Positions 3,810 through 31,650 of a stretch of 64,000 bases of DNA are shown in pieces. The stretch comes from Thuidium tamariscinum (Eukaryota; Streptophyta; Bryopsida; Hypnales; Thuidiaceae). Location: NCBI GenBank assembly GCA_947034885.2, contig OX344758.2, forward strand, positions 18,689,067-18,753,066, given 5' to 3'. Within the stretch, counting starts at the first letter, position 1. Every line of letters starts with the position of its first letter. The translations under genes and the position numbers were made by a program. The notes under the pieces were generated by a model. The model was not told where the DNA came from and did no database searches. It was given only the letters and a program-made list of their open reading frames with translations.

Positions 3810-4281
3810 GGGTGATTGCAAGAAACATTTGGTCTTTTTTTTGTCCCCTTGACTTTTACTAGGTAGTTTTTTGTTCATAACTTTTTCATCTTTTGTTTGT
3901 TTGACTTGAATTTGGAATGAAGGTGCACACAAAAGTTTTACATAATATGTAATTTTTTGAATGTAAAAAAAATTATTTTACTATTTTTAAATTGCCCCTG
4001 ATTGGATGTCTACCTTGGTCATTTTGGGGGCAATTTTCAAGAAGTTACACAAGTTCAAAAGATATTTTTTGAAAATATTATATTGTCCAACTTCCACATG
4101 TGCTCAAAGTGCATTGCCTTTGTGTAAGTGTGGAGAATACAATTTATTTTTCCCAAAGATGAAAATTGTTGGAAAGGAGCATCTTTAGGTAAGAAAATTT
4201 TTGAATTTTTGAATTTTTTTATTAATTTTAAATAATCAAAGAAAAAAGTGTCTATTTTCATTGTATTTTTCATTGTCCTTT
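3810..4281 (+). mobile_element. Left part of a MITE-like element split by the CACTA insertion
   Basis: It begins with GGGTGATTGCAAGAAACATT. The matching reversed end lies at 31650, beyond the CACTA transposon. Without the 27.2-kb insert the two parts would make an element of about 666 bp, similar in size to the family members at 36140-36860 and 59950-60754. The outer flanks CCAC and CCAA are close to a 4-bp duplication. The alternative left end at 3499 leaves the pairing uncertain. There is no coding sequence. Confidence 0.45.
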
Positions 4282-5885
4282 CACTAGAAGAAAATCACGT
4301 TTGAATCCATGTTCAAGTTACGTTGGTCTGTGTTGGAGGACCACTTGTACATGGTTGCAAGGGCTGAATAACGCTCTCTTGTTCACATGCATGTTGAAAT
4401 AAACAAAGCATGTTAGTTGGCATTCAATTTACAACATGACGTTCTCCCATCTTCGTGCTCCTGTCTAGTGAAACATGGACTATGTTCATCTGAACATGAG
4501 TGGACAACAGTGCCACGTGTTATGAGAGTGCATTGTGGGAACTCACATGGTTTAGGATGTGAACACTGTTCTTCCGCGTTTAGAAGGAATGAAGATGTCT
4601 GAAATTGGCTAGCGCATTCATTCTTATGACTTGCTGTCAGTGCCTGGCATTTGTCATCACTGCAAGTTGAGAGAGCTTTCTAAACAGAAGTTTTTGCCAT
4701 TTTCCAAAATAATTATAATTGCTCATTTGCAGCGACACTACTTGGGTGGTATATGTCATTCGAAAACGTGATGAAGGTACAGACTGTCACATTTTCTTTT
4801 CACTTATTTTCTTGTTGAGACGTTCATAGATACATGTAATGTGTGCACTTCCGGAATTCAAGATTTGAAGCATTTCATTATTTTCTTAAAATCTACAATG
4901 ACAGCAATGAGTACCTCGACATGTACAAGAAGTTGCTTAATTATTCTATGCATTGACCAAGTTTCTTTTTGTAGTTCTTGGTCTTCACCTACAGCAAATG
5001 AAACATTATTTTGTCATGACTTGTTGGGAAGAAAGACATTGGTCACATTCAGCCTACAGTGCACAAAAACGTAAATGACTTCGTTGAACTTCATCAGTGA
5101 ATGTATACTTCACTGTTTCAGCAATTCCATTCGGGAACTTCATAGGGAAAATGATGAACTTAGGATGCTCATGCATGCTTTGTGAATTCCTTGAAATCCT
5201 CCCCAACAATATATAAACACATCATATATATAAGAAGTCTTGGAATGCTGGTTACAATCATCCCAGTGTACTTGCAATTCTTTTGTACATATTCCTTACT
5301 TAACCTCAAATAAAGAGTTCGAATACTACTTTGTGATCAAGAATCTTCATTTCTGCAAATGTGAACAAAGACATCCAGAGGTGAATGACTTCTACAATTC
5401 ACAATCATTTAGAGCATATGAACAAAGAGAATTGAGGAAGCCCTCACCTAATTAGCGACTTCACCTGTCTTCAATGCAACACTCATACAATACATGATGA
5501 GAATTTTGGAAAGTGATTTGTTTCTCTGTTGCAGCTCATACCTTACAGACGTGTACCACATCTCAGCTTACAAACATATATTTTGTGCTGCTTTGTCATA
5601 TAACAGGAGCTTTCTTCTTGCTAATGCTTGAACTTCAGCTCAAAGTACGTTGTCCACTGCAGCAGCTCTCCATTTCCTTGCATGCTTGAATTGCCTTTAC
5701 ACAATGTGTACCTTCAAAAGTACTCAGGTCTTGGCCTATACATTGAGAGACGTGACTTCAGCATTGTCATCAAAAAGCTGTACATGACTTTTAGGTAGTA
5801 CTTTTTGAATTTATATTGGTCCTAACATATATATATAGTAGTTCATGCTTCCATTCGGAGTACCTGGTCATTGCTATTGTGAAGG
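4282..5885. other. Left non-coding region of the CACTA element
   Basis: No gene is seen. ACGT-containing words (CACGTTTGAA, CCACGTGTT) occur within 300 bp of the end; similar words (CCACGTTCC, CCACGTGTAG) occur within 300 bp of the other end when reversed. Further in, ACTTC words become frequent. These fit the subterminal binding-site arrays of CACTA elements. Confidence 0.5.
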
Positions 5886-8800
5886 CTACATTCGAAGAGC
5901 ATAGAAGTCTTCATCTCTTCCTGGTGCAAGAAAGCTTATCATAGGTCTGTCCATTTCAATATCCCCATGTCGGCCCCTCACTTTTGTTCCACAGACAACT
6001 TTCCAGTCTCCTCTAGTACTGTTTGCTTTTTCGACATCATCCGAGAAAAACACTTGTTCGCATTGTGTTGGAAATGCAAAGGACTGACAACCTAATGGCA
6101 ATGGACTTGAGAAGTTTGCAACTGTGAACCCATACTTATCACGAACTACCTTGGCATTCAGTGCACCTACTTGAGCCTCCACCCATGAGCAAACTAGAAC
6201 CACACAACAATGGCTACGGTAATTGAGTTCTAATATTTCATGAATCCACCCTACATACTCAGCACTTTCCCAACAGTCTCCTTCATTTACTGACCTCCTT
6301 CTTTTCAGACGCAAAATGGATGCTGCTATGCCACTATCAGAAGTTAGTTTATCTTCTTCTGCACTCACAACCCGCAGATGCATTCCATGAGCATACATCG
6401 CTCTATAGGATGTTGCCACTTTCTCTGGCAACTTTGAGGCCTCTATAACATCAGTACAGGGCTTCTTCAGTCCATTGACAGCGTTCTGCACTTCCACACG
6501 TAGCCACTCTGCAAATTTCGGTAGAGACAATAAGTCTTCTGGGTATTGCATACCAGAATGTCGACCGAATCGTTTCACATATTGCTTCTTGTAATCATTT
6601 CGGGCTGCAACCCTTTCATGCACTGCACTGTTGTATTGCCTAGCCAACAGAACATAGAATTAGTAAACACAGGAATATGCACATCAATAAGAACGTGAAA
6701 CGCGTCTCTATATTCTTCATTAAGAACAGGACTAAGAAGTAATTCTACATCACAGCACATGCGGCTTGAACCTCCTGTTCATGAGGACATTGTATTTCTT
6801 CAATCATTTCTGCTTCAAAGTACTTTTGCTTGACATGAACACTGAACAGGACATGACCATCTCATACAATTCAATAGCATTCCCAAAATTCGTTAGCATT
6901 CTAGAAATGCTGACTGATACTAATTCCTGAAGATGCTGTTCTTCAATGCAAATTAAGCTTTTCTGAAATTCCGAAGAAGCACATGTTCTAATCACAGTAT
7001 TCTGTACACTTCGATTATGTTTGCAATGCATGACTGTGTGTAATGAACATTATTTGAAACAGAAAAAACTTACAATTTCCAATCTTCCAAGTCCACGGAG
7101 TTACATAGCACAAAATCATGGGCCCACTGTACAAATTCCTCTGACATTGGACGAGCCCAACCACTTCCTTGAACAACTTCGTCGTTCATTCGCTGTTCCT
7201 CTCTGTCATCCCAAACTCGTCGACTTGTTCCCTGAAAACGTTGCATATATTCTGTGCAATATCCTAGTGTTTCCGACATAGCATAGCCTTCGGCCATGCT
7301 TGCTTCAGGACGGGCATATGTTCGTACATACTCTTTCAAAGTCTTCATATACCTCTCGATTGGATACATCCAACGGCAATGCACAGGTCCGCAAATGTAC
7401 AGTTCCTCCACTAAATGGATCATCAAGTGCGACATGATGTCCATAAAAGTGGGTGGAAACTCTTTTTCCAACATGCAAAGGGCATCGGCTGCATCAATTA
7501 AATCTGCATCTCTGTCAGCAATTTTTATTTCTCGAGCGCATAGTCTTTGAAAAACACGACTGACCTTCATAACGGCTTTCCGACAGTCTTCGCTGAGAAC
7601 ATTTCGCAATGCCAACGGCAGTACCTACACAAGCAAATACAGTGAGCTTCACAGGCTTCAACACAGACATGACTTCATCTTCATTTTAACAGAAGTCATA
7701 ACTGCTTCACGTTCTCTATACGAAGCTTCCTAACTTCACTCTACTCATTCAAAATTCACATTCAACTAATTAGCTCTATTATGTCGTAATGAACATGCTC
7801 AGTCTGCATTACGCAATGGAATAAGAAACATTCAATTCTTTAGCACATTAAACACCCTCAGAAGTGTTTTTGAACGTGCACCTGTTGCATGAGTACATGG
7901 AAGTCATGCGACTTCAAATACCGCAACTTCCCCTCATCCAAATACTTGTGGATGGCGCCAACATAATTCGATGGAGTTCTTAAACCCTTCAAAATTTCCA
8001 TAACTCTTGTCTTCTCAGTGGAGTTCAATATATATGGAGCTCTGGGTAGGTGGAACTCTTCATTTCCGCTCTCACTTGGTTGGACCCACAATTCTTCTCG
8101 AACTCTCATAGCCTCCATGTCCTGCCGACTACCAATGGAATCCTTTCCTCCAAGTATTGTCTTCATTATATTCTCTGAAATATTCTTCTCACAATGCATT
8201 GGATCTAGCAAATGACGGATGAGAAGTTTCTGTACAAGTACAAATACAGTTTCAATTGCTACTTCCTCATTCCAATACTTTCCCATGGTAAAGAAAACAG
8301 ACTTTCTCGTCCCTCAATGGTATAGGCAGTAGGCTCTTGAAGAATTCTCTCTTCGATTGCGCACAGACCTAACTACTTGCCCTCCCACTAAATACCATAT
8401 TCACATGACACATTCTGTTCTTCCGTTGAATACTTCCCTTCATGCAGACGTTCCTCACGTTATTCCATTGCCCTTTGCATGCCTTCACGACAGTCTTAGA
8501 GTTGAAAGCAATGGCTCTTGTTCTTCATGAGCACTGACCATTCTGGAACTCACTCGAACACTGTTTTTTTCAGATGTCCAACGTAAGTTACATGAACTCA
8601 CTCATTTCTCAGCATGCTATTGACTTTGAAGTAGCCCTACACAAAACAGAAGACATGCCAACAGAAATTGGCATGTTTCGTTCTGTGTGCACGTTACTAT
8701 TGACTTCTATGATACACAGGTCCTATTATTTAGCAAAAACTAAGTGCCCCCCCTTAAACATGGCCCACTAGACTACCACGTTAGTATACTTGCGTTCCTT

Positions 8801-10713
8801 TGGCTTCACAGGAGTGTTCCATGCGGGATTGTCCTATATCACCCTTGTTCAACTTTCAAAGTACCTTTTACAACTACATATGCATGCTCACTCTATGAAT
8901 CTCTTCAAACATACTTCAAGAACAAGAGAATGTGACTTCTCATGGCATAGTCATAATTCTTTTCTCGTTGAACTGAACAAGCTTCCTTGCACTTCATTAT
9001 TCTGAAATTCATGCTCACCGTCCAATATGGCAGGTCGTACAATGCACTTCTACGCTTCACTCCATGCTCATGAACGGGGTCAGTTTCAGCTCCCTTTCTA
9101 CCTCCACTTGATACATACAGTTCCCGTTGCAGACCAGAATGTCTTGTTTCCTCTGCAGACATCCTTGTTGGTGTTCCTCTGTAGTCTACCTTCCCATCAA
9201 AATGGAGACTCCTTCGATAGGGATGGTTCAATTTTGTCCACCTTCGACTACCACCATATACTATTTTCCTTCCTTTTGCATTCTTCTGAGCATCCATTTT
9301 ATTACCTGACTTTGCCGACCTAGCTTCTGTTGCTGGTCCACAAACTGTGCAGCCTTTATAGCCATGTGTGCACAAACCGGATATGAGACCATAACCTGGA
9401 TAATCTAATATTGTCCACATCAATATACCTCTCAATGTGAAACGCCGTGATGTTGGTGGCTTCGAGAAATCTTGGGCAGGTACTCCTTCCCAAATTTCTT
9501 GTAATTCTTCTATGAGTGGTCGAATGAAAACATCAATGTTTTCGTTTGTTGGTGACATTTTGCCTGATATAAGAATGGTCAACTGTATGAAGAAGTTCTT
9601 GGTCACCAAGTACGGAGGTAAATTGTATATTAGCAATAACACTGGCCATGTAGAGTGAGCAGTACTATTGTGTGCAAACGGATTGACACCATCCAGAGAT
9701 AGTCCAAATCTCAAATTCCGAATTTCGTCCTTAAAAGATGGATCAACGTCTGTGTCCACATGCTTCCACGCTGGACTATCAGCCACAGACTTCATGACAC
9801 TGTCATCAGTATTTGGATGATCATAATGGTAACGTAACATCTCTGCAATAGCTGGAGATCGAAACATGCGCTGCAACCTGGGAATAAGAGGAAAGTGGTG
9901 AATTACTCTTGCTGGAATGACTTCTGAATCCCTTAAGAATCTTGACTTCCCACACTCTGGACATTCTTTCAAGTTCTCATTCTCCCCACGATACAATATG
10001 CATCCCTCAGGACAAGCATGAATTACGTTGTAATTCAACCCCAATTTCCTAATCAATTTCTTTGCTTCATAGTGACTAACAGGGAGCACGTTGCTTGCTG
10101 GCAATAATACAGTTGACAAATACTTCATCAACTCATCCACATAAGCATTGCTCACGCCATGTATGACAGCCATGTTTATAAGAACAATTGTGGCAGAAAT
10201 GACACTCACATTTACCCCCCCGTAAACAGGACGTGTTGCTTGCTCATATAAAATGTCAAAAGAGTCGTCTGGATCTGTAGGACTGTCAACATCAACGTCT
10301 TGTTCTTGAACATGTGGAGTATCCTCTCGTTAATGATCCCCTGCATCAAAAGCATCAAACATTTGACGTTGGATGTCATGGTATGGATCCATATTCTCTG
10401 CATAGTTCGTTCTCATGGGCTCATCATCAAAAACATTTGGTGTTGGCAACTTCTCCCCCATGGAGTTCACCCACACGCCTTCTGTGGGATAACCCCCTTC
10501 AGGGTCACCACCTAACATGGATCGCATGAGATAAGGATCACGTTTGTTCAATAACAAGTGTTCTCGTATGACCTTCAGGTTGTAGCGACGTCCACCATGA
10601 CATTTTGTACAAGGGCATTTGTAAGAATTTGTACGTTGCTCCTTTGTGACCCTCATCTCTGTTTCCAATATCAATTCTTCCATTGGTATATGTAAGCCCT
10701 GACTTGATGTCAT
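5886..10713 (-). pseudogene. TNP2-type CACTA transposase, four exons, one internal stop
   Basis: Exons 10713-9019, 8229-7882, 7624-7074 and 6639-5886 join in phase across clear GT/AG borders and give about 1,115 codons. Domains in order: an N-terminal transposase-associated zinc region (CPCTKC, residues 33-38); a second Cys4 knuckle (Cys 234, 238, 251, 254); and the tnp2 catalytic domain with FGLSLDGVNPF (D341) and NIDVF (D394). LPYW joins LLIRHLLDPMHCEKN across the first intron, followed by DUF4218 (exon 3) and DUF4216 (exon 4, KYGFTVANF). This is the canonical layout of plant En/Spm TNP2 proteins, which cut and join the element ends. The only lesion is a TAA at 10332-10330 (codon 128), in the linker between the zinc region and the catalytic domain. 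An upstream 5' exon is possible because an AG acceptor precedes the chosen ATG. Confidence 0.88.
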
Positions 10714-13700
10714 TCTGCAAGTACTTTCACAACAGAGAAGTTGCACTTCTCAAGAATTCTATTCAGTAACAACGTCTATACTTGCCAGAATTACGAATGT
10801 TGTATTTCCTTGAACACTTTTCTTCAGTCAACGCTGACGTGCTCAAACACAGTGAAATAGGAAGCACGCATGCAGAAGACATTCCACGATGCAGGAAAAT
10901 TTGAAATCAGGATTACTGGTTCGCCGTCTTCATGAACTGTGCATGATTCATGAGGCCCTGTACAATACGTAAACATATGTCAACTAACACACTTGAATGT
11001 AGGCATGCACGCACGAAATATTGAACTTCAAGCATAAACCATTCTACAGTCCACATTGAAACATATTGTTCACAGCGCATGAAGAGTACAAGTTAATGAA
11101 CATAAATGCCAAGCTCCGCATTCCTGGCATATACGATAAATGTAATGTATACATGTGCAACATCTCCAACACTTCTTTGTAGGAGAACATATTGAAGGCC
11201 TCCCTAAGTTCCCTGTACATAGTTCGCCTCTTTCCAATCGAAAATTAGGCACTTCCTATTTTTTTGACGCCAAGTTAGTATGAACATACTAAACAAAATT
11301 TCTACTTGCCAGACTTCCTCCTTCTCTATACAATGATGTCATGATTAAATCACTTTCAACACGCTCTGCACTGACGGACGTCACAATACTAGACAGTTCC
11401 TGGCGACCTACAGAACGATATGCCTTTCTTCCTTCATGAAACTGCGCTTTTGATACACATGGCCTATAATCAATGAAGGTGACACTATGAAACAAGGTTG
11501 AACTAAATATCAATCGTCATGACCACATACAGTTCGGTCAGACTCCATCTTTACAGTCTTGTGAGTCCTCTGTGGATGAACTACTTTCAAGAACTCTTCA
11601 GAAGATTTTGTTCTCTTATTAAAGTAAACTGTACTACGGTCGTTAATCATTTCATTATGGGAATCCTTCTGTAAACTGTTTCTCACTTGCACTAAACACG
11701 TTCCACTGTCATTGTCAGACCTGAACTGTGGAAACCGCTCTTCCCCTACCACTTCGTCAATGACTTTCCGCTTACGAATGCCTGTCTTCTGTGCCCGTGA
11801 CACACATGACAATTGCGGTCGCAATAGTTTGACCTCTTCGGACTAGCAAACACTCCCTCATTGCCTGTCATATTTCACGGGTAGCCAGTCTTCCTCATCT
11901 GAAACTGCCCGTGAAATACTTGTCCACTTGCCCTCAACTCCGCAAGGACGGCTGGGTTTGTAGGATTCCACATCATCCATGGATATCAGCAATGTTTAAT
12001 CAACTAGATCAGCAACAATATCCAATATGTAAGCACACACATAACCTCGTTGAAGGAAACACCATAACGTAGATCGACTAAACGTCTACAGTTCCTTACT
12101 TTTGTGTTGTCATGAAGCAGTACATTCGGCCTACCACTCCGCATCTTTGTAATGCTTATCAATCCGCACAAGATTCCAGTAAGCATGAAGTACTACATCT
12201 TCAACAGACGCTGACATGGTGAACATACTCTAACAGACTAACACGTAGCGCAATTAGAATTTGCAAGAACGAAACCAACAATGCACTACCACTTCAATGC
12301 TCCTGAATTTCGCACTGTGTTGCCTCAGGAAACACTAGAAATGAACTTCCTTGTTCAATGACTGCCGATTTAGACTGTTATACAATGTTCTAATATGACT
12401 GCAATACCTGCATATACTTCATAGAAAGCATCCACTTTCACATTTTCGACGTCGAGAACTCCTCCCTTCTTATAATGCTCACTAGTAATAACCTTCATTC
12501 TTTGAAGAAGAATGCTTGCACACTTTCTTCAGTAGAAGTATTTCAGGAATGCATATTCTTAGAAACAGTGCTTCGGAAAACACAATGTCCTCACTCTTAC
12601 TTCCAAATTGACGTATATAGCTGTGTATCACCGAATTTCGAAACGTGTTCCCTTCAATTTCCCTTTGTAATGCTCTCTTCTCAATCACAGAAACTGCATT
12701 CTTGAAGGCACACATCATTACTGCCGACCTCTTTTTCAATTTCTAAACCACTGAACTTCTTGAATCACATGAAGGAATTCGTAACTTACTAGCATCTACA
12801 ATGGATGACTTCAGGTACTGCTAATATGATGTGCTGCTGAAGGAACCTGAACACATTTCCTGAAAGGGCCCTTGACAGAAATCATGGACATTCCCTAGAA
12901 TACATACGTGTACGATAAATTCGGCATTCACTATGAGTTCTGTAAGAGTTACTGTGCACTGTATACAATTCTAATTTGCCAATGCATGCACTCCTCAGAC
13001 TTGTATGACACATGCACACACTTCTGCAGTCATGTGCTCCTACTTTCTTTTGCAGGGCTATGGAACATGTGCCATACTATTTTCGTGCCAACTTTAAGAA
13101 GAACAGAGAAGCAAAAGGTAGCTTCTGCTAGAATTACAGCCATTAAAAAATAGGCTTCGAACTACGGGAACCTTTCTCATGGTTTTCCCTTACACATTAC
13201 AGGATGAACAGAACCATAGTATTACACCTCCATTTCACTCTTCTGCATTTTTGTAAGTTCTGTGGATTGAAATGTACTGAGAATTTGTTTTCTATCCATT
13301 CTCGAAATCTTCTGGAAGTACTAAAATAGCTCATACTGAATTACCCATTCCAATATGTAGTTAGCGCAATGTGTAATTGCTTCACGCCACAATGTCTAAA
13401 GAGCAACACCACAAAGTGAAGACTCTGTTTGGGAATACGGGATATTTTTGGAATTCCTTCATTACTAAGAATGTGACGGTCGCATCTTGATGTACAGTAC
13501 TTTCTTAATGTCATTGAATAAATCCTCACACAATTTGCCATGGAGACACTATGATTTGAACATGTCATCAACAAAATATGTAAGTCCTGAGCATGAAGAA
13601 GACATCGTCCACGATGGGCACGCAGACATCCTCTTCTTCACAACCAGTTCATTTGAACCCCACTTTCACAAGCACTTCACTGATCCCCTTTTCAAAACAC

Positions 13701-14791
13701 ATGCATGTACACTTGAGCTTCACTTTTGAGACTCCTGAACAGGACAAGATGAGTACGTCACGTACATCGACCCTACTACCAATGCTTCTACAAAATCGTC
13801 ATCACTTCAGCAGTTCTCACTCATGAAAAAGGTTTATTCTGTGCGACATGTTCACTTCCACAATACTTTTGAATTGCGCATTCATAGTTCGGTTCGCTTT
13901 CATTCCATTGAATAGTTCAACGTTGTGCTCACAAGTACGTTCACAAGTGAGTATTGTGAAGTTCAATTCAACGAAACAAATGTGTTTCCCCAAGAATGCA
14001 CTTCACTATCCAACATGATGAAGGCCTTCCAGTCTTCTACACTGGTTTACTGACTTTCTAAACAAATTTCGATGCCTCTAGCACTCTTATTCTGTTTCTG
14101 CCACGAAGGATGGTCAAATTCATGTTGAACACCCCTTCTAGTAGGAAGACCCCTCTTAATCATCCGGCTTTCAAAATCAAAGACAACTGTTGTTGATTTT
14201 CGCGAATCCTAAGGGCAATGCATGCTGCAATTGGAATTTTGATTGCAGGCATCTTGTGGAGACATTTCCAACTCCCTACCATACCGTTCCTCGTCTGCTC
14301 TATCCTCTGCATTTTTGGTATTTTCTCTCTTGAATTCAAATGTCTGCCACGTCGTTCTTTCAGCTGAAACATGAGCACGTAGGCTTCCAAGACGAAGTCA
14401 GGTTTCCACGGAAGTTCCCATTGTGTAACGGATTTTGCAAATTCGCACTAACATCATGGACACATTCAGTTCCAACTCAATGAAATCTAGGCACTTCAAG
14501 AAGCAATGGCTACCACTCGGTGTAATCACACACGACACACAGTGGAACACCGTTATGAAAAAGAAGGACCAGAATTTCTTCAGTACGGAGAACGTCACTC
14601 TTGACAACCTACCGTAGGACCTCTACGTACTTCATCGTCTGTTTTGCAGCACTGTACAACGCACATTGACACGTGGCGAGGCTGCAAAGACGTTGCGAGC
14701 AGTACTTTTGATCACACTGATTAATTGAACAGATTTGTATCTCCCAAGGTTTTGAACACCTGCTTTGCAATCACTTGTCCCGCCGTCAAGG
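10714..14791. other. CACTA interior without a recognised gene
   Basis: This is the region between the two divergent transposon genes, and it should contain both promoters and 5' leaders. Only short frames occur and I recognise none. ACTTC words dominate on the plus strand: a by-eye count in 12000-13500 gives about seven ACTTC and two GAAGT. Confidence 0.5.
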
Positions 14792-15115
14792 ATGGACGAC
14801 TCATTAACAGACAACGTCCACTTGAGCGTTGAGATCACGGAGTATGAACAGGAACGGAATAGGAGAAAGAAGTGCTTACATGACGCTGTAGAACGGAACT
14901 TAATTGCGGCTGGTTTGAGTGAAGTGGCTGCTCTGAGGTCTGCCTTCGTAGGGGGCGCAACTACTGCAGCTGCTGTTTCCGTTCGTAAGCAAGTGCGCCG
15001 GAAGAAGGTGCTCGCGGTTGGAAGTGCAGTCACAGTAAGGAGGAGTGGACGGCAGCGAACGCAAGCCCAGCTCAATTTTCCCCTTGTCACAACAGCTCCA
15101 CGTCAAGGAAAATGG
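14792..15115 (+). CDS. Probable first exon of the second CACTA gene
   Basis: 108 codons from ATG to a good donor (AATGG/GTAAG), ending in phase 0. It begins MDDSLTDNVHLSVEITEYEQ and has a basic helix (ERNRRKKCLHDAVERN). It ends with the basic motif RRSGRQRTQ, a form common near the N terminus of plant transposon proteins (RRSSR-type). It lies in the same direction as the Transposase_24-like exons 2.5 kb downstream, so it may be the start of that gene. The connecting exons could not be traced, so a separate small gene is also possible. Confidence 0.4.
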
Positions 15116-17594
15116 GTAAGATGGAACCGCATACAGAAGTTCGTCGCAGTTGTTTGTGTCTTCGTCTCTTTCGTTTTCCTACATTCACAGGCATTGGGTT
15201 GCTGAATTAATGATGTTGGCGGCTGTTCATGCATCCCTTCCTATTTGGTTGTCCCTACGCACTGAGTCCATAATGAACTTTCTCGAAGCAGTACGTCCAC
15301 GTGGGCGAACTTGGTGTCTGCAATCAGGGCATCCACTTCTCTTCTTAGATGTCTACTGCAGACTCGCTTGGGCACCTACTCGCGGCTGTAGGTTACACTT
15401 CAAATTGTCGCCCATGAAGACACTTCTCAACGTCCTTACTGAACATGGCAGGGCAGTAGTTGGACTGGCATGCACGAAAGGGTTTCGGATTCTTTGCTAA
15501 CCACTATCTCAGGTTTCATAACGGTGTTCGCGTTCGCGTAAATAAGTAGCTGCGTTCCGTCATTACCGTTGTCACGTTCTGTGAACGTTTTCCTCTTGCT
15601 TAGTAATTCGTTCTCTTCATTCAATGGAACAACAGTGAAGGACGTGTGCTTATATGCATTCACCGACATGTCCGACTGCCACTACAGAAGTGAATTACAC
15701 GAAAGCTTGGAAGCCCTAGATCGGGGACTTCCGACAGCGAGTGCCAAGGCCTACTCTGTTACGATCAGCAGTGCTTGCGCTGGATGCCTGCACAACAATG
15801 TCGAATTGAGAGTACGAGGTACAGCGCTGTTTCTGCTTCGTGTTCTTCTTGATTTTTTGGTCAGTTTCTCCGCAGCACGATCCCTCCAACTCGATGTAAC
15901 AATGTTTTTGACAATTCTAGTACATCAGTTCTGCGATGCACTGTCTTCTATATGTCTCTGTTGCTGGACTTCAACGCGTTGACATGCATTGCATCTGCAA
16001 CATGATGCTTTTAGCGGTTCAGAAATTTGCTATGCCTCGGCCTTGCATATTGTCATTGACCCCCGTATACTCTTCAAATCTTTTGGGGAAATGGGTGTAA
16101 TTGCATGCTTCATAGAATTGAATACATGAGCTTGTCGAATTAGTTGCTGCATAGCACTACTATGTGTGGGTGCACAGAAATTTAGGTCTGCTGGGAAGGG
16201 TTACCATTAATGAACAAGTTCCTTCACTCTTGCTTTGTAGGAAGTTCAGCGTGTCAATCGTGCCTGGTTTGCTCCGACTGTCTCCGAATGACAAACACCC
16301 TGTCTTGAACGACTTGAACTCCATTAAAGCAGTGCTTCACGATGACCAGATGTCGAGATTAGGGTTCTGCAATGTAGTCGTTCATTGGGAATTGCACATT
16401 GTACGCAAAGCTTGTGTACATCATGTACTATTCCCATTCGTTGAATGCGTGTGCCCATTCTCAATGCAGAGGGAATTCCTCACTTGAAATTGGTCCGACC
16501 TTCCGCTGTACCAGTTTGCGTGACCCTATTCTGGAAGTGCCACTTCTCTTATGAGCTTCTCTTTTTTTTAGCCACTTGTCATCTAACTTCTTCTTCTCTA
16601 AACTTCTTCAGCATCAATGTAGGTCAATTCGGGTCACGGAGATTCCAGAAGAGAAAGCTATTACTGCTCGTTCTCAATGGAGAGTTCTACTCTGTAACGA
16701 GTCATCTTGTTCTTGCTAACCCATACTGCTATATATGAAGTACTCCTGTGAAGTGAGGGAAACAATTACAGAAGTGCTACGTGTAAGGAAACTCTTCTAT
16801 TTTTGCATGACTGCAGCTTGCGCACTATGACAACGTCAACACCGGGATGCTTCTTCAGCAGTTGTGTGAAGACAGGAAAGAGACGTGTGAGGCATGGCAT
16901 GACAAGGTTTCAATTGAACTGAAACTGCGGCTTGTAGTCCATGTCTGCACTAGAGGTTCTCCTTAGACTCAAGCTCCTCTGCTTTTATGAGCAAGTACAT
17001 GTGCTTCTGGTTAACTGACAGAGCGCCATTGTCGTTCAGGCTCTTATTACTAATTGAGGTCAGTCATGAATAAGTAGTCCGTATGTGGGAGGTGGACACT
17101 GCGTTACAGAACGCAGTCTTTGATGTCATGTGGGTTTCAGTGGGCACTGAGAAGCGCATCCAGCAATGTCGAACTTTACATTGGAGGCCAACAATTCGGC
17201 GACAAAGTATTGCGGACGTCAGTAATGCATGATTGCGTTCTCAGGAGACAACGTCCTCATTGTCACTGACACTGCTTGTCTGCTCTCAGGGTCGGGCATA
17301 GATGCATGTCACTGCTCAGTGAATGCGCATCAATTTGTGTACATGAAGTGAGAGTACCGTAGCTATTACAGAAGGCGTGTAAGGAACATGTGTTCGAGAA
17401 TAGTGTAGAAGGGCACTGCTGTTCTTTCTCATTTCTCGAATAGAAACGCTCTATGCTACTCTGTTCAAATTCTCCACTGCATTATTCATGGTTTTCCCTG
17501 TATGAAGTGTTACGTCCGTGTACTTTGAAGGCCCTGAATCCGTTGGAGGACTTAATGCTCCTGTCCTGTTGTAAGAAGCAATGGTTTTTTAACC
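15116..17594 (+). other. Probable introns or small exons of the second CACTA gene
   Basis: No confident gene. Possible exons with AG/GT borders lie at about 15650-15826 (includes ELHESLEALDRGLP) and about 16819-16911 (LAHYDNVNTGMLLQQLCEDR). I cannot join them in phase with certainty and recognise no domain. Confidence 0.3.
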
Positions 17595-20500: not shown

Positions 20501-21430
20501 AGAGCACGGAAGGAGACATGCAGAAGGAATTAGTGCTGGCAGCGGTGGACGATGACAAAGAGACAACCAAGGCAGCTGAAAGCGACGAGAATTTGCAAAT
20601 CAGCGACACGGACTCCCATACGGAGGACTCGCAGTCTGATGATGATGATGATGATAGCGAATCAGAGCAGGATGCAAATGCTGAGGAAGACAGTTCTCTC
20701 CAATCACATGCTGTCAATGTGGTGGAGCCGGACACTGCTTGTGTGGAAAAAGTAGCACCAAAAAGCTTAAATGCTACGACTGTAAAGAACTTTGTTAGTA
20801 AGGTTGCAGTGTCGAAGACCACAGACACGAAAAGTGGAGGAGGTGCATTCAGTAGTACTGCAATGCCTGAAGTGGAGCAGAACAAAGCAAATGGCCGCCT
20901 AGGAAAAGATTGTATGGGTAAAGGGAAGCAGGTACAGTTTTGATGACACTATTGTTGCTTCATGTTATTTATGTTGTAGTATGTTATATGTCATGATCTA
21001 CAAGGCGACGGTGTCCACGAATTAATGTGCAAGTACGTCCTCGCTTTCTGTGTCATTGTAGTGTATTGGAACAGTAGGATGCCCGTGAAGATGTGAAAAG
21101 CAAAGGAGGACTTCAACGAATTCTGATGAAGCACTCACCAAATCGAAGCATTAGAATGCATTGAATCATTAGCGTATTGATGTTCTAAGAGAGAAGTTCA
21201 ACTGAAAGAGATGAAGTGTTGTGTTGTTAGTATAGGTGAATTTTAGGTTGAGGCTCCATTTTCAACTGTTGCATTTTGAATTGTAGGTTGCGGTCAGTGG
21301 CGAAGAGAAACAGAAGGACCCGGACTGCAGAGCATCGAAGCGCCAAAAACTTGGCTTCAACTCAGTGGAAACTCCAGTGGTACTCGACGAAGGGCCTTCT
21401 TTACAGGAAGCTTCTCAGAAAGGCATTTGA
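17595..21430 (+). pseudogene. Transposase_24 (Ptta/En/Spm)-like gene with an internal stop
   Basis: Exons about 17595-18129, 19249-19931, 20239-20931 and 21287-21430 join in phase at GT/AG borders; the true 5' start is uncertain. The first part is basic and R/G/Y-rich. The third quarter carries GWPQGQMATL, then YLRKVAGAALIQFRYSLNQL and SQEKSQKMAAIARGHGSKN. This resembles the W...N..NR...H..GSKSF region of the plant Transposase_24 family, the second protein of many CACTA elements. Next come a coiled-coil-like charged stretch, an acidic run with six aspartates and a possible nuclear signal (SKRQKLGF). A TAA at 19284-19286, right after RDYH, breaks the frame in the R/G/Y region and is probably an old CAA. 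In En/Spm the partner protein binds subterminal repeats; that role here is inferred. Confidence 0.6.
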
Positions 21431-24400
21431 GGGAAGGCCCAGAAACTTACTCGGAAGAGTCGGAAACGCAGTCACCAGGAAGGGCAGGGCAAAGCACTAA
21501 AGGTATGATTGAGACCTTGCTAGTGATGCCATTCCTCAAATGCTGAGGTACATGACATTGCGTTTCAATTGATCAAGGATGAGCAGTACGACCATGTGTC
21601 CAATTTTTTGCTTACAGAGACTAAAAAGATTAACAAAGAACGTCTGTTTCAGATGAACAGAGGTTTGATATACTGTACATGTTTTACCTGTTCAGTAGCG
21701 CGTGCTTTCAATATTTCCAATGGTATTACAGTACTTTGCTTCATCATAGAGAATAGTTGTCAATCCGTAGGTCAAGTGCATTATATGCAGAAATTGAATT
21801 CACTGTGAACGGAACATCACTCTTGTGAACAATTCGAAGGTTTCCTTAATGACACAGAACAAAAGAAATGTCTCTTCCATGCACTGACTGTATGGTGGCC
21901 ATGTCTTAGAAGGGGAAGTGAAGTGCGGACCTGCCTCACTGCCTGACGAAATGCAAACAAAAAGTGTAAGTGACTGTTGAGACTATCCATGTAGCCTTCA
22001 TGAGTTGAAAGCTGATATGTAGTTTTTATTATTACAAAGTGCATATGTTAAATGCGGAATGAAGTGGAGCACTCATGTTGTGTATTCTTGGCAGGTGGAT
22101 ACCATTTTGGACGAACATATTCTATTATCCAAAGAAATGGGGCTTGCAGCATGAGTGCTGTGAGCTGCGGAATTAGTGTATGACTTTCAGGACAAGTACC
22201 AGAGCATTCTCAGTAGTACAGAAATGGAATGACATAGTTTGCATGTGAGAAGTGCACAAAGATGTCATGTTCGTGCAAGTAGAGTAAGGAAGAAGTGAAG
22301 TGCAACAGCATGGCACGTTTTGTATGGAATAGTAGTCCTCTGAGGTCACGACTTGCCTTCAGAATTATTGGTGAAGTGCTAATACGAGCATCCATATTTA
22401 ATGCTCAGTTTTGAATGTGCGATGTTGTCTTGTGACGTACCCATGTGCTGCCTTGCCCTACAAGAAAGAAGTGGAGAATAGCTGACATTCAGGTTCCGTT
22501 TCGTTTTTCTATTTTAGTCATGTGTAGTGCTTCAGTGATTAGTGGACGTTGAATTGCAGCTCAGGACACGTCTGAGCACTGCTTAGTTATTAGGAACGCA
22601 GGTTCGGACGACATTTGTATACACTTTTTTGAAGTACTGCTGAAGTTGTTAGTGTTTACATACCTTTATGTAGAGAAGTGTTCTTTCACTATAGAAAGTG
22701 ACAGGGGGATGTTGATATTGTTATTAACATTTTGACAGTGGCTGCGGGAGCTTGCATAATGAAGCTGCGTAGAGTGGATGAAGATTAAGTTGTTCATGCA
22801 AAACGAGATTTCCAAGCAACACTTTATTGTGGACGTGTAAGGGACTGCTGGAGTAGTGGGAGGTACATGTATTTCTTTATCTTCTTCTTCAATGAGGTCA
22901 ACGAAACCTCATTACTGTGCAGTCCTACAGTGTTCTCCAACTGTTTCAGAGTACTGCTTATAGAGGAGGGTAACCAAGGTACTGTATGCCTGTTGTGTGG
23001 CTGGGAGAAGTGAGTGCAAGGAATTTCGTAAATTCCTGTTTTGTCGTTGAAGGTGCCTTATATGTTGTCGTTGTTGCATGCGAAGCACGCAATGAAGATG
23101 TTCGTGTCAGAAAAGGAGGTGGCTGCTGCAGTGTGCCACTATGACTGTGCGCGAAGGGATGTCATTCTAGTCCTTTTTTTTTAGCAAGTTTGCTAACGTT
23201 AGCCTGTACGTGAATGTGAAGAACAGTTTACAGTCGGAGCGTTGGTTGTCTTCCTTGAAGTTGGACTGCATTGAAGGAGGGAATAGTGCACCTCGCAGCA
23301 TCTCATATAGTCAGCGTAGTCTATAGAGAAGGTGAAATGAAGAGTCAACATCTGATGGTCAGTACAATTCATGTGCAGGAAGTGGTAGCATTATTGGAAA
23401 AGGTATGTAATGGTCGTTGTTGTCGCTATGTTTTCTAGGGATGCCTAACTTGAGACACTGTTTATAATTTCCCAACAAATTGTCAAATCACGGTGCTAGT
23501 GTTCCCAGTGTGCACAAGCCGTTTGCAAGCATGGAAGCTATATATTGAGTGTGTGGTAAGTAGTGAGCTCCTGTGCTAACAAGTGAAACAAAAAAATTCC
23601 ATGGAAGCACTCATTGGAGTACGAACATGTAGTCTTTCAGAATGGCATGTGCACATTCTTTTCGGAATTGGGCACACAGATGGCGTGCAGGAGACAGTGT
23701 CAGGAAGTCCGTCTGTACCGTAGTGTTTGAGGTACCAGTTAGTATGTACCGAGTTCTTGTAATTCGAGTGGGCACTGACGTTTTCATTTGAAGATGCAAC
23801 ATTATGAGGTAGATGTCATGAAAGAAATTCGGCATGGATGAGTGCGGTTGCGTTCATAATGCAAAGAAGAAGGTCTCTGCGGCACACCTGCACTCCGAAT
23901 TGGTCACAAGATATTCACAATATTAAAAGCAACGCTTAGCATTACTGTAAGAGGCAGGTATGTTTGAAGGCAATATTCTTGACAAAATCCCCATTACTTT
24001 GTGCATGTTTCTGTTGTAGTTGAAAAGCATCCACAGAAATCTACTTCTGTGAATATGAAAATCTAATGCACCTTGTGAGTATCATGTAGTGTTAGTGGAA
24101 GTCGAACTTGCTGCTGTTCAGGATGGCGTAATAGTTGTGCACGGACATTGTTGTAGTAGTTCCTCTGCTGCGGAAATGAGGTTCGTTTCTTTAGTCTTTC
24201 ATTTCCTTAGAAAAATAAGTGAATTTCATGAGCGGTGGACACTTGTTTTTCGATTGAGAGGTAATCAATGGTGAAGCAGGCTTCCATGAAATTGATGCAA
24301 GTAGGCAAAGTCAATGCACCACTGTCATCTTGGAAATGGCGCACATGTTATGCACTTCCTTCATGGTGAGTATAAATGTGTACAGGACGTCATTGCTACC

Positions 24401-27400
24401 AGCAACGTCAGATCATTCAGAAGCATTGCAGTTGTAGGACAGTACTGTAGAATGTGAAAGACATTGCACTTCTCGTCTGTCAGTCCGTCAGGCAGTCTGA
24501 AATGGTGATTCAGGAAAGGAGAATTTATAGTATGGTGCATGACAATGTTTTTCAGTGGAATGTGAAAGACGTGTGGCATTGCATTCTTTAAGGAATGTAT
24601 GGAAATCCTACTGAAGCAGTACAGCAATTAGTAGCAATTCACAGAGGTCAGGGTCAGTGATAGGACATGTCGTCTCTGTGAATAGTTGAGAAGTCACAAA
24701 GTAGGATAGTATGGATACGTGGCGAAAGTCATGCAGTACAAGAACTTAGTGATTGCCTCAATAAATACCTGAAGTATATTTTGTTGAGGCAGACGGTACT
24801 CTCTTCTAATGATGCTAGCAGTAGGACAGGAAGTTCCTGTAGTGCGCAATGTCTACAATAGAAGGTTTTCATAGAATTCGAAGAAGAACATGTTGTACAT
24901 ATATTTCCATTCTTCAGGATCCCAGTAGGAGTGTACGTGCAAGTGCAGCAGAGCAGACAATGTGTTTCGTTGTGTGCTCTGCATCTTGAAGAATACAATA
25001 TATGTACTTGGATGTCATGTCCTATAGAATTTTTTCATGTCTTCCACGGGTTGGTGAAAATCAGTGCTTTTGGGGTACTGACAACTATCGGATATGCCTC
25101 GCAGTCATCATTTCATGGAACTGTGCAGAGCACAATGTGAATCATTGGATATTGTAGTCAGAAGTGGGCTACGGAGGACCGTGGAAGCTGATGCTGAGGA
25201 TGTTTTTCAATTTTCCAAGACTATGCGTCCTATAGACGTTTAAATTCTGTTCTGCAGTCTTCTGATGTCTATGATGGCGAGGAAGTTCTGCAAAGCAAGT
25301 AAGTAATAACTGTCTTGTCCTTGTACAGTGAACTGTTTTGTAGACGGTGTTTGAAACTGTAGTTCTCAGTGATGGGAGGATGATGAGTTCACGTGAACAA
25401 TGTCTGCAGAAGTGAAGAGCTGCATTTCAGTTGCGTCATTTCGTGCAGTACGAGGCTCGTCTTCAGTATGCTTTCTGTGCTGTTTTCCATATGAGGTTTT
25501 TGCCAGATTAATGAGTCACAGAGGGGAATAATGTGGTCAATGAAGTTTCACCTGGTCAGTGTAGTACTTGCAGTAGAAACTGTTAGAGCGAAACAAATTG
25601 TGGTTGAAAGTCTTGTGAAGGTTTTCTGTGTCTTGAACGCTTCACCTGTCACAATCTAGAGCTGAGGACTACTATATGTTCTGAGGACAATATTCATAGG
25701 TAGAGGTGGGTAGTCCTGCTGTTGCACTGAAGGGGAGTTCTACAGTGTTCTACATGAACTCATTCTAAACGCGTTGGCACATTTGAAAGCGCCAATCATT
25801 GATATAGTGTGTAGCACTGTATGTCTTGTGCTCATGCTATCCACTGTCTTGCACATTGCTCTTCTCAAGTGAAATCATTTTGCTGTAAAGCATGTAGCAT
25901 AGCATTTGGATAGCGGATGCAGAAGTAATCAATGGTCCAAGTATGTTTGTATAAGCGACCTCTATAGTGAAGACTGAAGAGACATGCTTGATTCCGGAAA
26001 GGCATTCGCGAAGTACTTTGCGCTTGGAGGGGACATGCCGTATTCAGTATACGTACGTGAGTTCTGCATGAGCTAACTGGACAAGGAGAATGAAAGACAT
26101 ATAAGTGGGGTTCAGCTTGTATGATTCCAGAAGTCCAACGACAGAGTGCAAGCATGTGCAGGCATCCTGCATCTGACTTCAATGTCATCCATGTGTCTAA
26201 TGAAAGTACAGGCATAGTGTTTTGCGTTGCTTGCATACAAGCTCTGAACTAGTTTGCTTGATGGAAAGCAACTGAGCTTCATTGTTTCATGCAGAGCACG
26301 TTCGTGGAGTATGTAAGCTTTCCGGGAGATCGGAACTGAATTGCAGTTCAGTAACAGAGTAGTGGTAGGTACGTAGGCAGTTGGAAGTGCATTTGGAAGT
26401 GTTCATGACGTAATAGTGTTGTAGTTCTTTAAGTCAATCATGCGTGCTGGACACAGTGATAGGCTTTGTTGATTCATGACTAAGAGAACAGCAAGTGGGC
26501 TCCTCTTTCTGCACGGAAGTGATTATTGCTTTCTCTGCTGTAGACATATGTAATACGTTTGAAGAAGTGCATCCACAGGAAATGCTAGTGCTCTTGGGTG
26601 CCATGACAGGAAATGCAAGACAGAGAGGATACCCAATTTCTTAAGAGTTGCTTTTGTTTGCAAGGACATCAGAAACTGAAATCGGTCTTGAAGGACAAAG
26701 CCTCTTTGGTCTTCGACATGCCGCTGTCTGTGTGATACATATGGTGTGTTACATCTTCTGTGCAAGACAGACCGGACGTGTGTATTGACACGAAGCATTC
26801 CAAACTCGGTTGCTCTTGCAGTGTATGGAGAAAGCGATGTCAATGACGGGGATTTCGCAGACGCTAGTGACAGTGCAGGGAAGCTGGCAATGTCACATCC
26901 TTGTAGGTACGTACCCACATTTCACATTTTCGAGGACACTTGTACGATTTTATATTTTTATAGGAAGACCGTAATCTTCATGTTGAAGCAGATGAGGAAA
27001 TGAAGTACTGTGGAGATGTTCGGAATTGTCCGAAGCTGTCTTCTCAGTTTGGCAATTGTAGAAGTTGCTTGTGCTTAAGAGGGCCGTAGAAATTGATGTT
27101 CAGATTTGTGGGCCAGGACCTACTATGGCCTCATGCAGAATTCGGTTGAAAACGTGCATTTTTTGGAAATTGCGTAAGGTCTTCTACAATGAAAATTGTA
27201 TAGAAGTTCAAGAATTCGAAATAGCTTAAGTGAGCACGTTCAGGATAGACCCATTATTGAAAGAACAATATACATCAACGATGTTGCCAGGATTATGTTA
27301 TGAAGCAACGACGTGTTACAATGAATTTGAGAAAGCCTTGTAATTGATGCAAGTGTCAGTGTGCAAAATTTCTTTTTCTTCTTCTTACAGACGTCCTATA

Positions 27401-27939
27401 ATTTGAAGATCTGAAGATGAGGTAAGCGTGAGTGGTACATGTTTCACATGTATAGAATCTGCGAATTCAGGGTAACATTTCTAGAGGACAGTTCTAGAAA
27501 GAAGTAGCGAAGAACATGTAGGTGGTTTTGAGAGCACTCTATGCTCATGGAGTCCTTAGTGGTATTCTAATTAAGGAAGCTAAATTATTGTATAATTGAT
27601 GTTGCAGAGCGTGTTGTACAAGAGCAGATGGATGGATTGAAGAGGTAATCGCTCATGTTCCAGGAGAGCGGGACTTAAACAGGAATTGCCTCATGGAATT
27701 TAATATAATTGTCCATCATGCCAAGTCATAGAGGTAGTCGTCATATGTGTGCTCCGTTTGCTGAGCTTCAACAACCACTTACTGTATTGTAGTTTGTCCC
27801 ACTTAGACACTACTATATAGCAAGAAGTGCAAGCCTCATATTCATTTACGTGTTTTTTCATTTGAATTGCAATGTGGGAGAGGAAGTGGAGGTCTACCAT
27901 CGTCAACTGCATTTGCAAATGTCAGCATTGTAGATTCTT
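21431..27939. other. Long non-coding right arm of the CACTA element
   Basis: No gene is seen in 6.5 kb. GAAGT words dominate on the plus strand, the reverse complement of the ACTTC words of the left arm: a by-eye count in 21000-22500 gives about ten GAAGT and one or two ACTTC. Words such as AGAAGTGAAGTGC recur (around 21905 and 22290). Confidence 0.55.
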
Positions 27940-28135
27940 CACTAGAAGAAAACCGTGTAAGAATGGTGTGAAACGTGTCACCTTGTTTGTGTTGAAAACC
28001 ACGTTTGGAACAGAAGAAAACGCAGGAAAATGTAGAAAAACATATTTTCCATCATTTTCTTCCGTAGCAAAGACGCTTTTCAACATAAAGAAGGTGACGC
28101 TTTCTACACCATTCTTACACAGTTTTCTTCTAGTG
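27940..28135. mobile_element. Nested 196-bp palindromic mini-CACTA (MITE)
   Basis: It starts CACTAGAAGAAAACCGTG and ends, reversed, CACTAGAAGAAAACTGTG. The bases outside are CTT on both sides, a clean 3-bp target duplication. The whole element is a near-perfect inverted repeat: the first 30 bp of the arms differ at one position, and arms of about 95 bp are roughly four-fifths identical by eye. There is no coding capacity. Its ends match the 13-bp ends of the host CACTA, so it could be moved by the same transposase. Its transcript would fold into a long hairpin. Confidence 0.93.
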
Positions 28136-30029
28136 CTTACTACTAAAATGAACATGAAATTCGAGAACGTCATGTTTGACGTTTGTAAATTCAGTTGTAG
28201 ACAAATTCTTTGTTCAGGACATTAGGACAACATCAATACGACCGTTGAAACCTTCCATGTTGTAGACTTGTCTTCATGTTGTTTTTAGCAAGTATACGCA
28301 CAGTTATTGTTCTTTAGAGGCCATCTTAGAAGCAAGCAATGTAACTTACTAATACCGGTGTTGCTTACTGGAGAAATTGCAGACTGCCATGGAATCCAGG
28401 GATTTGTCCCACGAAAATGTACTTTCCAAACATGGTATGCATCCTCAAGTGGAGAGGTACGTGTTTCCAATCTCAGTGGACGGTGCCCAAGGACAGGTCA
28501 GGTAGCACCTGCCAGACATGGTAATAAGAAACCATGAGCTACCAAGTGAAGATTCCAACGTGTTCACTGCTCGTTAAGTATTGTACGCAGGTTGTGCCTT
28601 CTCTGTCATGCGGGTGGAATCTCATCGGAAGTCAAGTTAGTAGTTCCCTTCTCTGTTGTCTTTCATCAAAATAGCAGAATAATGAGGAGCACCATTTGTA
28701 ATGAATATGGCTTCCTAGAACCACAGTTACTGGATTCCACATTCACATGGGAGTGAAATTGTTGGTACGGTTCTTTCTTCAATGGAACTTGAAGCTTAGT
28801 TGTGTATATGATTCTGGAGATAGAAGATCTCAGATTCCATGATTATTGTGAAGCAAGGTTCTGTCAAGTGAGTGACTCCTTTTTAGTGGCTCCTTCTGTT
28901 CTTTGCTGAAGTAAATCCCAACGTTTCCACTAATCTTCTATGATGGGTTTTCTAGAAAAGAATGACAATGCGTTGGAGCTATTGAGTACACGTTCTGCAA
29001 ACTTCAGTGGGGCCTTCATCATGTGCTTCTGGAAGCTTTCATATGGCACTGAGGTCTTGGTTTGGCGATGAACTCTTCACTGCAGGCACTAACAGAGTAC
29101 CAGCCTCTACCTTCAAGGAAGCGGAAAATGACATGCACAACTAAACCTTTTGAATATAGGAAATTCCGGACAAGTCTACCTTCATACCTGAAGACCTTTT
29201 TTCTGTACTCCCTATTCCTTCACGTGGAACCAAACATGTAGGGAAGATGTAGGGTTTCCAATATTCAGTATTGAGGGTTTAGGTAAGTAAATGATGCAAG
29301 TCAATTCGAATGATACAGAGAACAATTGAAAGAGATGTCAGATTGGGGAGACGATGTATTGAAGACTGAATTTGGGTTTGCTGTTTTTGTGCAGGGTATT
29401 TTGGTAGGACATCAGTGAATGCTTCGTAAGGAGGAGGTACTGCAGGCATCCATGTTGCAGCTGCCGCTGTTATGATTGCGATGATGGAGTGGCTATTGTT
29501 CTTCTTCTGTGGACATCGTTACCCTCCATCATACGTCATCGCAAGAATGGAACGCTGTGAGTTCTTACTGTGGACATTCTTTTTCTGTTGTTTCCTCCGT
29601 TTTCTTATTGTGTTTCATGAATACATAATGAAACGCTTCGGAAATGACATTTCCCAAAGCGAAAGCATCGTGAAACGAGGATGTCATCAAATTTTTGACA
29701 TTCATACACTCTTGTCCATTGAAACTTCTAATTCACCAAGAAACATCAAAGAATTCATCTTTGTTCAGCGGGTATTCCTGTTCAACACCTTTTCTTGATT
29801 TTCTAGGTAAGACCTGCAACTGCAAGTACTCAGACATTGTAATCATGTGTAAGATTTATAATTCTTATCACACATTAAAAACTGAAATCCATGCTCAGAA
29901 TTCCCAGTGTAATGCACTCCTTCAATCATAGTTATAAAGCACTTTGATCCAACCATTGTGAATGGCTTCACAAGTAATTTTCTATCATGCTTCTGTTGCG
30001 AGCGGCTGTGAAACTTCCCTTTCAATCAA
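28136..30029. other. CACTA right arm, no confident gene
   Basis: Short frames only. The segment 28371-28577 reads as 68 codons with one stop and looks vaguely protein-like, but I recognise no family. Confidence 0.4.
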
Positions 30030-30032
30030 CCA

Positions 30033-30320
30033 CAAAAGAAGAGAGCACTGGAAGTGGCCAAACGAAACGTCTTCAAATACGAGGACTGCACTCATGCAAC
30101 AGTGAACTTCATTGATGAGAAGCAAATCAAGCAAGGAAACTATGCCTAGATGTGCTTGGGCACCTTGAACGACGGCAACAAGGAAGTGGCGATGCAGCAG
30201 CCAAAGCTGGGGTCGTATGAAGTCGCCCATGGTTTCTACACTGACATTAAACTCTTGTCAACAATGCTTCACTGCAATCTTGTCATGCTGCATGCCTACG
30301 GTGACGACGACATTCACCAG
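30033..30320 (+). pseudogene. Captured receptor-like kinase fragment inside the CACTA element
   Basis: The reading frame gives a juxtamembrane and kinase N-lobe segment. KRALEVAKRNVFKYEDCTHA and a degenerate glycine loop (IKQGNYA, stop, MCLGTLNDG) lead to KEVAMQQPK, where the catalytic lysine of AVK is lost. Then follow a helix C region (VAHGFYTDIKLLSTM) and CNLVMLHAYG, matching HRNLVxLxG of plant receptor-like kinases. It ends at CACCAG/GTATGC, a plausible original exon end. Lesions are a TAG at 30147-30149 and the missing lysine. It lies 1.1 kb from the right end of the transposon, the usual place for gene fragments picked up by CACTA elements. It cannot encode an active kinase. Confidence 0.75.
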
Positions 30321-31456
30321 GTATGCAGAATGTTTCTGTCTCATTCTGATGGTCTTGAAAAATTCTAACCCTACTTATAGAGAAAGGCAAGGTGCATGGA
30401 CTGTGACCTCTCTGAAGCATGCTACCGTTAACCGCAACTATCTTCAGTCTCAGAATTGTATAGAACATAATGCCTCTAGTATTTGGTATTCATGGAAATA
30501 GAACTTGGATTCCTTATAGAGGCATGCAAGGTCTATAAGTTCTGTGACATCAGCAGCAATGCAAATGCATTACTGTAATTCTTCAATGTACTTTTCAAGT
30601 ACTTCGCTTTTTCAACAATTTGGGAGTTCCATTACTTTCTTATAGTTTTGATGATTAGGTTTTTTCATATGTTTGAAGAGTAGTACCCAAGAAATGCGGT
30701 CCTCTTTGCAATGAAGACATGAGTTCAATTCATTATTTTTGTAGTATGAATATTGATGACATGCAACTTCACTTCCCATTCACATATTGGTCACTGTGTA
30801 CTCCACTTGCATGCATGACTGCATGTTCTGCATGGAATTATGCCGAGGGCTACCTAGCCATTTTGAAAATTCTTATGTTCAAAGAAGCACACTATTGTTG
30901 ACGTACACAAGCATGACTTTCTTTGTGCCTATGTTTATCATTCGAAAAACACGTTCACTGGAACATGCATGTCATGAATGCACATTCACTGCAACGCCCT
31001 AAAAAGCACTTCCGTTTTTGAAGACGTTCCTTCAAATGCGGAGATCGGAAGTCTAACATGTTATTACACAGTCTACAATACAAGAACACGTTCCCAAAAA
31101 TATAAGGACAGCAGAACAAGAAGACACATGTCAGTAGCACCTTCTTCTCAGAAATACTGGCACAAGTCAGAAACGATAGGACACGTGTTGCGCTTAGAAA
31201 GCGAAATTGAAATTCTTTAAATAACCATTCAAACCTACACGTGGCAAAGCATTTGGCACCCACCATATGTTTCCACAAACACGGTGAACAGTATAATAAA
31301 CATGAAAGGTTTGATAGAGAAGACGTTGCATTCTCTGTGTTGACAACGTGACTCTCAACACAATCTACTTGACGCAGTCCGTTTTCACTCGGCATTTCAA
31401 GGAACGTGGTTTTCCTGTTACAGAATTGTTGTTATCAACAGGTTTTTCTTCTAGTG
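30321..31456. other. Right terminal region of the CACTA element
   Basis: No gene is seen. Near the end, read from the right, ACGT words recur (CCACGTTCC, GTCACGTTGTC, CCACGTGTAG, ACACGTGTCC), echoing the left end and suggesting subterminal protein-binding sites. Confidence 0.5.
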
Positions 31457-31650
31457 TTTTTTTGTGCATAACTTTTAGAAGTAAGTTTTCTTAGATCTGA
31501 ATTTTAAGAGACATAATATTTTCATTACTCTTCAAATTATCCATATTTCATTTTATTTTTAAAAAATTATTCCAAAAGTCACAAGATTCATGGAAAATTG
31601 AAAATAGGCCATTTTGAAACAAAATCAATAAGTGTTTCTTGCAATTACCC
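31457..31650 (-). mobile_element. Right part of the MITE split by the CACTA insertion
   Basis: It runs from the CACTA right border to a reversed family end (AAGTGTTTCTTGCAATTACCC). It contains GTGCATAACTTTTAGAAG, similar to GTTCATAACTTTTTCATC in the left part at about 3872. Together with 3810-4281 it would reconstitute one element of about 666 bp. Confidence 0.45.

Follow-up and report, generated by a model that had tools for sequence, protein, structure and literature searches.

We analysed a 64,000-nucleotide stretch of the genome of the moss Thuidium tamariscinum (contig OX344758.2 of assembly GCA_947034885.2), referred to below as the window, in which positions 4282-31456 are almost certainly occupied by a CACTA (En/Spm) cut-and-paste transposon of 27,175 bp. 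The element is a member of an old and apparently low-copy family, with a basic unit of about 27-30 kb. The class of transposon is a known one; the family is unusually large. Comparison of the copies indicates that most of the element's size is ancestral non-coding DNA that was inherited with it, and that large size is mostly a trait of the family.

Borders and paired-end relatives of the element

The element begins with the 13-bp terminal inverted repeat CACTAGAAGAAAA (4282-4294, plus strand) and ends with its exact reverse complement (31444-31456, minus strand), so that 13 of 13 positions match and the sequence starts with CACTA. A TTT target-site duplication lies directly outside each end (4279-4281 and 31457-31459). 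Neither the ends nor the duplication would be strong evidence alone, since 64 kb of sequence with equal base frequencies would by chance contain about 30 exact inverted pairs of 13 bp, and TTT accounts for 11% of the 3-mers in the AT-rich flanks of the element. The placement of the borders nevertheless goes beyond chance, because the sequence starts with CACTA, a tnp2-type transposase is encoded in the interior, and the same pair of ends occurs at seven other places. The CACTA structure and both borders, which had been proposed in a preliminary description of this DNA, are thus upheld.

The other places were found by searching the genome (363 Mb in 19 contigs) with the first and last 200 bp of the element, the match counts being lower bounds. 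Each of these two end sequences has at least nine matches, and eight pairs of ends (that of the window element included) share a contig and a strand, stand in the correct order and are 14.4-46.5 kb apart. Besides the window element, with its span of 27,175 bp and its TTT duplication, these are copies A (span 27,662 bp, duplication AAC), B (29,757 bp, ATT), C (14,428 bp, ATA), D (46,531 bp), F (45,993 bp, TTT), G (32,009 bp, ATA) and H (35,794 bp, TAC). The preliminary description had proposed such a paired-end search, and had held that ends occurring with different partners would speak against the element. Eight of the nine left-end and eight of the nine right-end matches were found as pairs, and matching 3-mers flank seven of the eight paired copies. 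The left 13-bp end is identical in the eight aligned left ends, a truncated ninth (E) standing outside the alignment, and the right 13-bp end is perfect (13/13) in seven of the nine aligned right ends, with one substitution each in D and F.

With regard to the empty site, junction-spanning matches for the joined flanks (in the sequence examined, the window's own flanks excluded) are only 54-60% identical and AT-rich. Some observations on the ends weigh against the main reading. The ends of copy D pair, yet the flanking 3-mers, TAA and AGT, differ. Left end E (C11:12218693) and a right end at C11:4509839 are without a partner among the matches listed, and the 30 kb onward from E hold no 13-bp reverse end.

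The 13-bp end occurs four times in the window, twice in each orientation, as would also be expected if the outer ends came from two separate insertions whose true units, defined with the help of an inner end pair, were 4282-28135 and 27940-31456. This reading is scarcely credible. Matching 3-mers are found outside the two outer ends (TTT/TTT) and outside the two inner ends (CTT/CTT) only, as the crossed pairs would have TTT/CTT and CTT/TTT, and these misfitting duplications rule out a crossed pairing of the four ends. Moreover, copies A and B align with the window element up to the identical outer right end, and their homology spans 27940-28135 without interruption on its way there. Because the duplications fit the outer and inner pairs and not the crossed ones, the inner pair delimits a short non-autonomous CACTA-type element nested in the large one. 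This 196-bp foldback element (27940-28135) has the same 13-bp ends as its host and its own CTT/CTT duplication, its arms are 82% complementary, and its fold has a z-score of -14. It is the sole nested insertion recognised in the window element, and had gone unnoticed in the preliminary description. Separately, an extra internal reverse 13-bp end is present once in each of copies A, B and G; in A and B it sits at a 300-370 bp sequence that is present in F too.

Large size as mostly a trait of the family

A colinear chain on copy B covers 91.4% of the window element, non-coding arms included, with 60-72% identity per block. Colinear coverage by the other copies is 72.8% for F, 67.5% for G, 58.8% for D and 34.2% for A; D and G were compared without their right ends, so that their figures are floors, and H was read at its ends only. 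Copy C covers 12%. In control alignments, neither the element in reverse nor 27 kb taken from the opposite side of the window matched B, and the latter matched F over 1%. Since colinear chains cover most of the window element and the controls reach 0-1%, its non-coding DNA is for the most part inherited with it. When six copies are pooled, every base of the window element lies in some plus-strand match, these matches not being restricted to colinear ones. No tandem array longer than 150 bp was found in the element.

The preliminary description had presented the element as a case of growth, which would imply that this copy was enlarged recently through repeated capture or nested insertion. Transposons do occur inside members of the family: the 196-bp element here, a hAT transposase gene in F and a second CACTA transposase in D. 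However, the 91% that the window element has in common with copy B in colinear order contradicts accretion for this copy, for which we consider it very improbable, though it may still fit the family's distant past.

Copy F owes its larger span mainly to about 16.7 kb (F positions ~27.7-44.4 kb) that match neither the window element nor B and that, we infer, arrived as one nested insertion. This DNA contains a frame of 1061 amino acids with DUF659 and a hAT dimerisation domain (L043:2217-5399) and one of 802 amino acids with RING-finger matches just below the cutoff (L042:5981-8386). Copy D has a second, distant tnp2 transposase (L030:49-894, minus strand, 41% protein identity) inside its 46.5-kb span. 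In D and F, the presence of other transposons thus accompanies a larger span. Copy C, a short form, has retained its two ends along with a portion of the last transposase stretch. Copy A has both ends and the whole last transposase stretch, and most of its middle is unrelated. This middle (L009-L011) includes a stretch like the DUF7869 region of the window, together with inverted repeats of 1.1 kb at 99.6% identity.

The transposase gene

The gene for the transposase (TNPD-type) occupies 5886-10749 on the minus strand, with coding stretches at about 10749-9021, 8229-7881, 7618-7073 and 6638-5886, whose intron borders are approximate, having been placed from homology only. Four open reading frames (ORFs) on this strand, from 10.7 to 5.9 kb, have Pfam matches in the order Transpos_assoc (expectation value E 0.0012), Transposase_21 (tnp2; E 6.7e-59, 199.1 bits vs a cutoff of 28.6), DUF4218 (E 7e-32) and DUF4216 (E 8.9e-6). 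It weighs against the assignment that two of these four matches, Transpos_assoc and DUF4216, fall under the Pfam cutoff. By what is known of the superfamily, the tnp2 transposase would cut at the 13-bp ends and insert the element with a 3-bp stagger. Together with a second gene on the plus strand that runs from 17.6 (perhaps 14.8) to 21.4 kb, the minus-strand gene at 10.7 to 5.9 kb bears out the earlier claim of two genes in divergent orientation. Coding stretches sum to about 5.5 kb (5.9 kb if the doubtful stretch at 14.8 kb is counted), and nearly four fifths of the 27.2 kb are thus without coding signal, where about three quarters had been estimated before.

Between copies, the transposase stretches have a ratio of nonsynonymous to synonymous substitution (dN/dS) of 0.06-0.34, at a synonymous divergence of about 0.3-0.8 substitutions per site. 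As judged from substitution patterns, such low ratios show genes that were kept working under selection over much of the family's divergence. The window element itself has an in-frame stop codon at 10330-10332 (minus strand), between the Transpos_assoc and tnp2 stretches, and is alone in this among the five copies compared, as the four relatives B, D, F and G have a sense codon at the site. Removal of this stop by splicing was considered and rejected, as the reading frame continues open to either side of it and the relatives have sense codons. Because of the nonsense codon in its frame, the window element probably now relies on transposase supplied by another copy. The preliminary description, which had not noted this stop, had called the element complete; the term needs to be qualified in view of the nonsense codon.

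It is quite conceivable, although we lean somewhat against it, that the family is a dead relic, with genes inactive in the relatives as well as in the window element. The nonsense codon fits this reading, as do the other stops in relatives: within the 562-codon transposase stretch compared, B, F and G have one other stop each, and G has one further stop in the last transposase stretch. In addition, similarity between copies is 60-72% in the blocks that they have in common with B. On the other hand, the low dN/dS between copies points to selection through much of the divergence, the window element has perfect ends and an intact duplication, and copy D is free of stops across the five transposase stretches compared, and likewise in the 562-codon stretch.

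The second gene

A second conserved gene is present on the plus strand at 17556-21427, with stretches at about 17556-18155, 19287-19946, 20191-20940 and probably 21287-21427. The first three have dN/dS of 0.21-0.36 against B, D, F and G, whereas two wrong-frame ORFs used for comparison (17683-18189 and 21280-21543) have 1.2-2.1. The 21287-21427 stretch is open in all four relatives, with a ratio of the corresponding uncorrected proportions (pN/pS) of 0.33; an antisense frame at 21265-21414 is likewise open in all four, at 0.40. A possible first exon lies at 14756-15202 on the plus strand, although its strand is ambiguous: dN/dS is 0.28-0.42 in this frame and 0.29-0.49 in the antisense frame 14635-15102.

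Two kinds of observation weigh against taking all of these stretches as exons of a working gene. Several wrong-strand ORFs have low ratios, so that the ratio alone is no proof of each exon. Furthermore, the relatives have stops: three in B, one in D, none in F and two in G in the 17556 stretch; one in B and none in D, F or G in the 19287 stretch; and two in B, two in D, one in F and two in G in the 20191 stretch. Part of these stops fall upstream of the likely exon start.

The product is a candidate TNPA-like protein, a name that derives from the position of the gene and the usual layout of the superfamily. If so, it would act as a helper that binds the end regions, as expected from knowledge of the superfamily. 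Pfam searches at E up to 10 with the second-gene stretches of the window element, F, D and G returned weak unrelated names only, and searches at E 0.1 with three plus frames of 14001-28900 and one minus frame of 10751-25648, all read through, returned no match; elsewhere in the element, Pfam was applied to individual ORFs only. A single-sequence structure model of one second-gene exon was poor (mean predicted local distance difference test score, pLDDT, of 41.9) and unfit for structure search.

Eight left and nine right ends align well, and the left and right kinds share the 13 bases and scattered words containing ACGT. In the window element, the terminal 300 bp contain four ACGT on the left and five on the right, vs 1.29 per 300 bp inside, and 3.5% of interior windows have four or more. 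Counts in the other copies are 3-5 for six left ends, 2 for that of H, of which 154 bases were compared, and 3-8 for eight right ends. The motif was picked after inspecting the ends, and we take the ACGT words as a lead for a candidate helper-protein binding site, no more. K-mer counts revealed no clear subterminal repeat unit in the element.

Composition and constraint of the right arm

The right arm (21428-31456, about 10 kb) has no convincing coding signal, and has more G than C on the plus strand up to about 28 kb. Seven non-coding blocks within 21581-31456 (three vs B, three vs F, one vs G) are 55-71% identical, compared with 46% in a shuffled control, and at fourfold sites of its transposase the window element has 63-69% identity to B, D, F and G. 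There is thus little sign of constraint on the sequence of the arm. Block lengths are nearly equal between copies (e.g. 3478 vs 3473 and 2136 vs 2135 bp), with the qualification that blocks were chosen from alignable chains, which favours equal lengths. In the window element, B, F and G, GC skew measured in 2-kb steps is negative (about -0.15 to -0.23) at element positions 2-10 kb and positive (about +0.15 to +0.25) at 16-24 kb; the pattern extends to 20 kb in D and is seen between 20 and 24 kb in A. Such a skew would, we infer, be explained if both arms were transcribed outward.

Since the arm has diverged like fourfold sites or further while the aligned blocks have nearly kept their lengths, and since the outward excess of G over C recurs in every copy compared for it (the window element, B, F, G and parts of D and A), the arms of the inherited 27-30 kb body could be selected for their length or for long outward transcripts, and not for their sequence. 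We put this forward tentatively, and regard it as rather unlikely. The impression that the arms contain few insertions and deletions was dropped as an argument, because the count varies with gap penalties. Substitutions per gap were 38-54 in the seven arm blocks by global alignment and 11.9 by BLAST; control repeats outside the elements had 6.6, in a set inflated by self matches and AT-rich sequence, and about 25 and 41 were reached by two repeat pairs of larger size. A large gene-poor body that is kept despite divergence of the transposase makes the family a natural case for studying the benefit or cost of such a body to a DNA transposon.

Flanks and rest of the window

Inverted copies of a sequence like GGGTGATTGCAAGAAACA flank the element at 3810-3842 and 31618-31650, and occur also at 3499, 32271 and 60721-60756. 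The element sits as if inside another repeat of roughly 660 bp. The left flank of copy D has the same repeat of about 660 bp (79% over 219 bp). To the left of the element, a minus-strand frame of 233 amino acids with an LRAT domain (2075-2776) is a possible host gene. To the right are a plus-strand frame of 385 amino acids with a sub-cutoff HTH_Tnp_Tc3_2 match (32876-34033), possibly a Tc1/mariner-like transposase, a plus-strand frame of 455 amino acids with DUF7869 (41324-42691), and a minus-strand frame of 736 amino acids with no Pfam match at E 0.01 (49553-51763).

Comparison with known CACTA elements

Among known CACTA transposons, Candystripe1 of sorghum is a large one, at 23 kb. The En/Spm element of maize measures about 8 kb, and both of its products come from one strand. 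The moss element, in contrast, is 27 kb long and has two genes transcribed away from each other. Otherwise the two are alike in having CACTA ends, a 3-bp duplication, and a transposase gene with a second ORF, features described for the superfamily (PMC4158355). A literature search for CACTAs whose genes lie in opposite orientation led to work on Mutator-like elements, and larger or divergent CACTAs may well have been published.

The preliminary description had placed the element well above the usual size range, and its 27.2 kb do exceed the published large CACTAs compared here: Tgmt* of soybean at 20.5 kb (PMC2613891), the expanded En/Spm families of Chondrus crispus, a red alga, at 16-20 kb (PMC6431247) and an element of quinoa at 16,523 bp (PMC8978399). 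Tgmt* resembles the moss element in its 13-bp CACTA ends (imperfect in Tgmt*), its 3-bp duplication, its very large size and its putative autonomy, but has its tnp2 and TNP1 domains in a single large gene, and also has subterminal repeats, which are not clearly found in the moss element (PMC2613891). Subterminal repeats of 10-20 bp units are given as a CACTA criterion in the quinoa study (PMC8978399). In the quinoa element the extra length is non-coding too, but 5.5 kb of it are a captured satellite array (PMC8978399). The Chondrus crispus families are likewise oversized, but carry 4-5 ORFs, whereas the bulk of the moss element is non-coding (PMC6431247).

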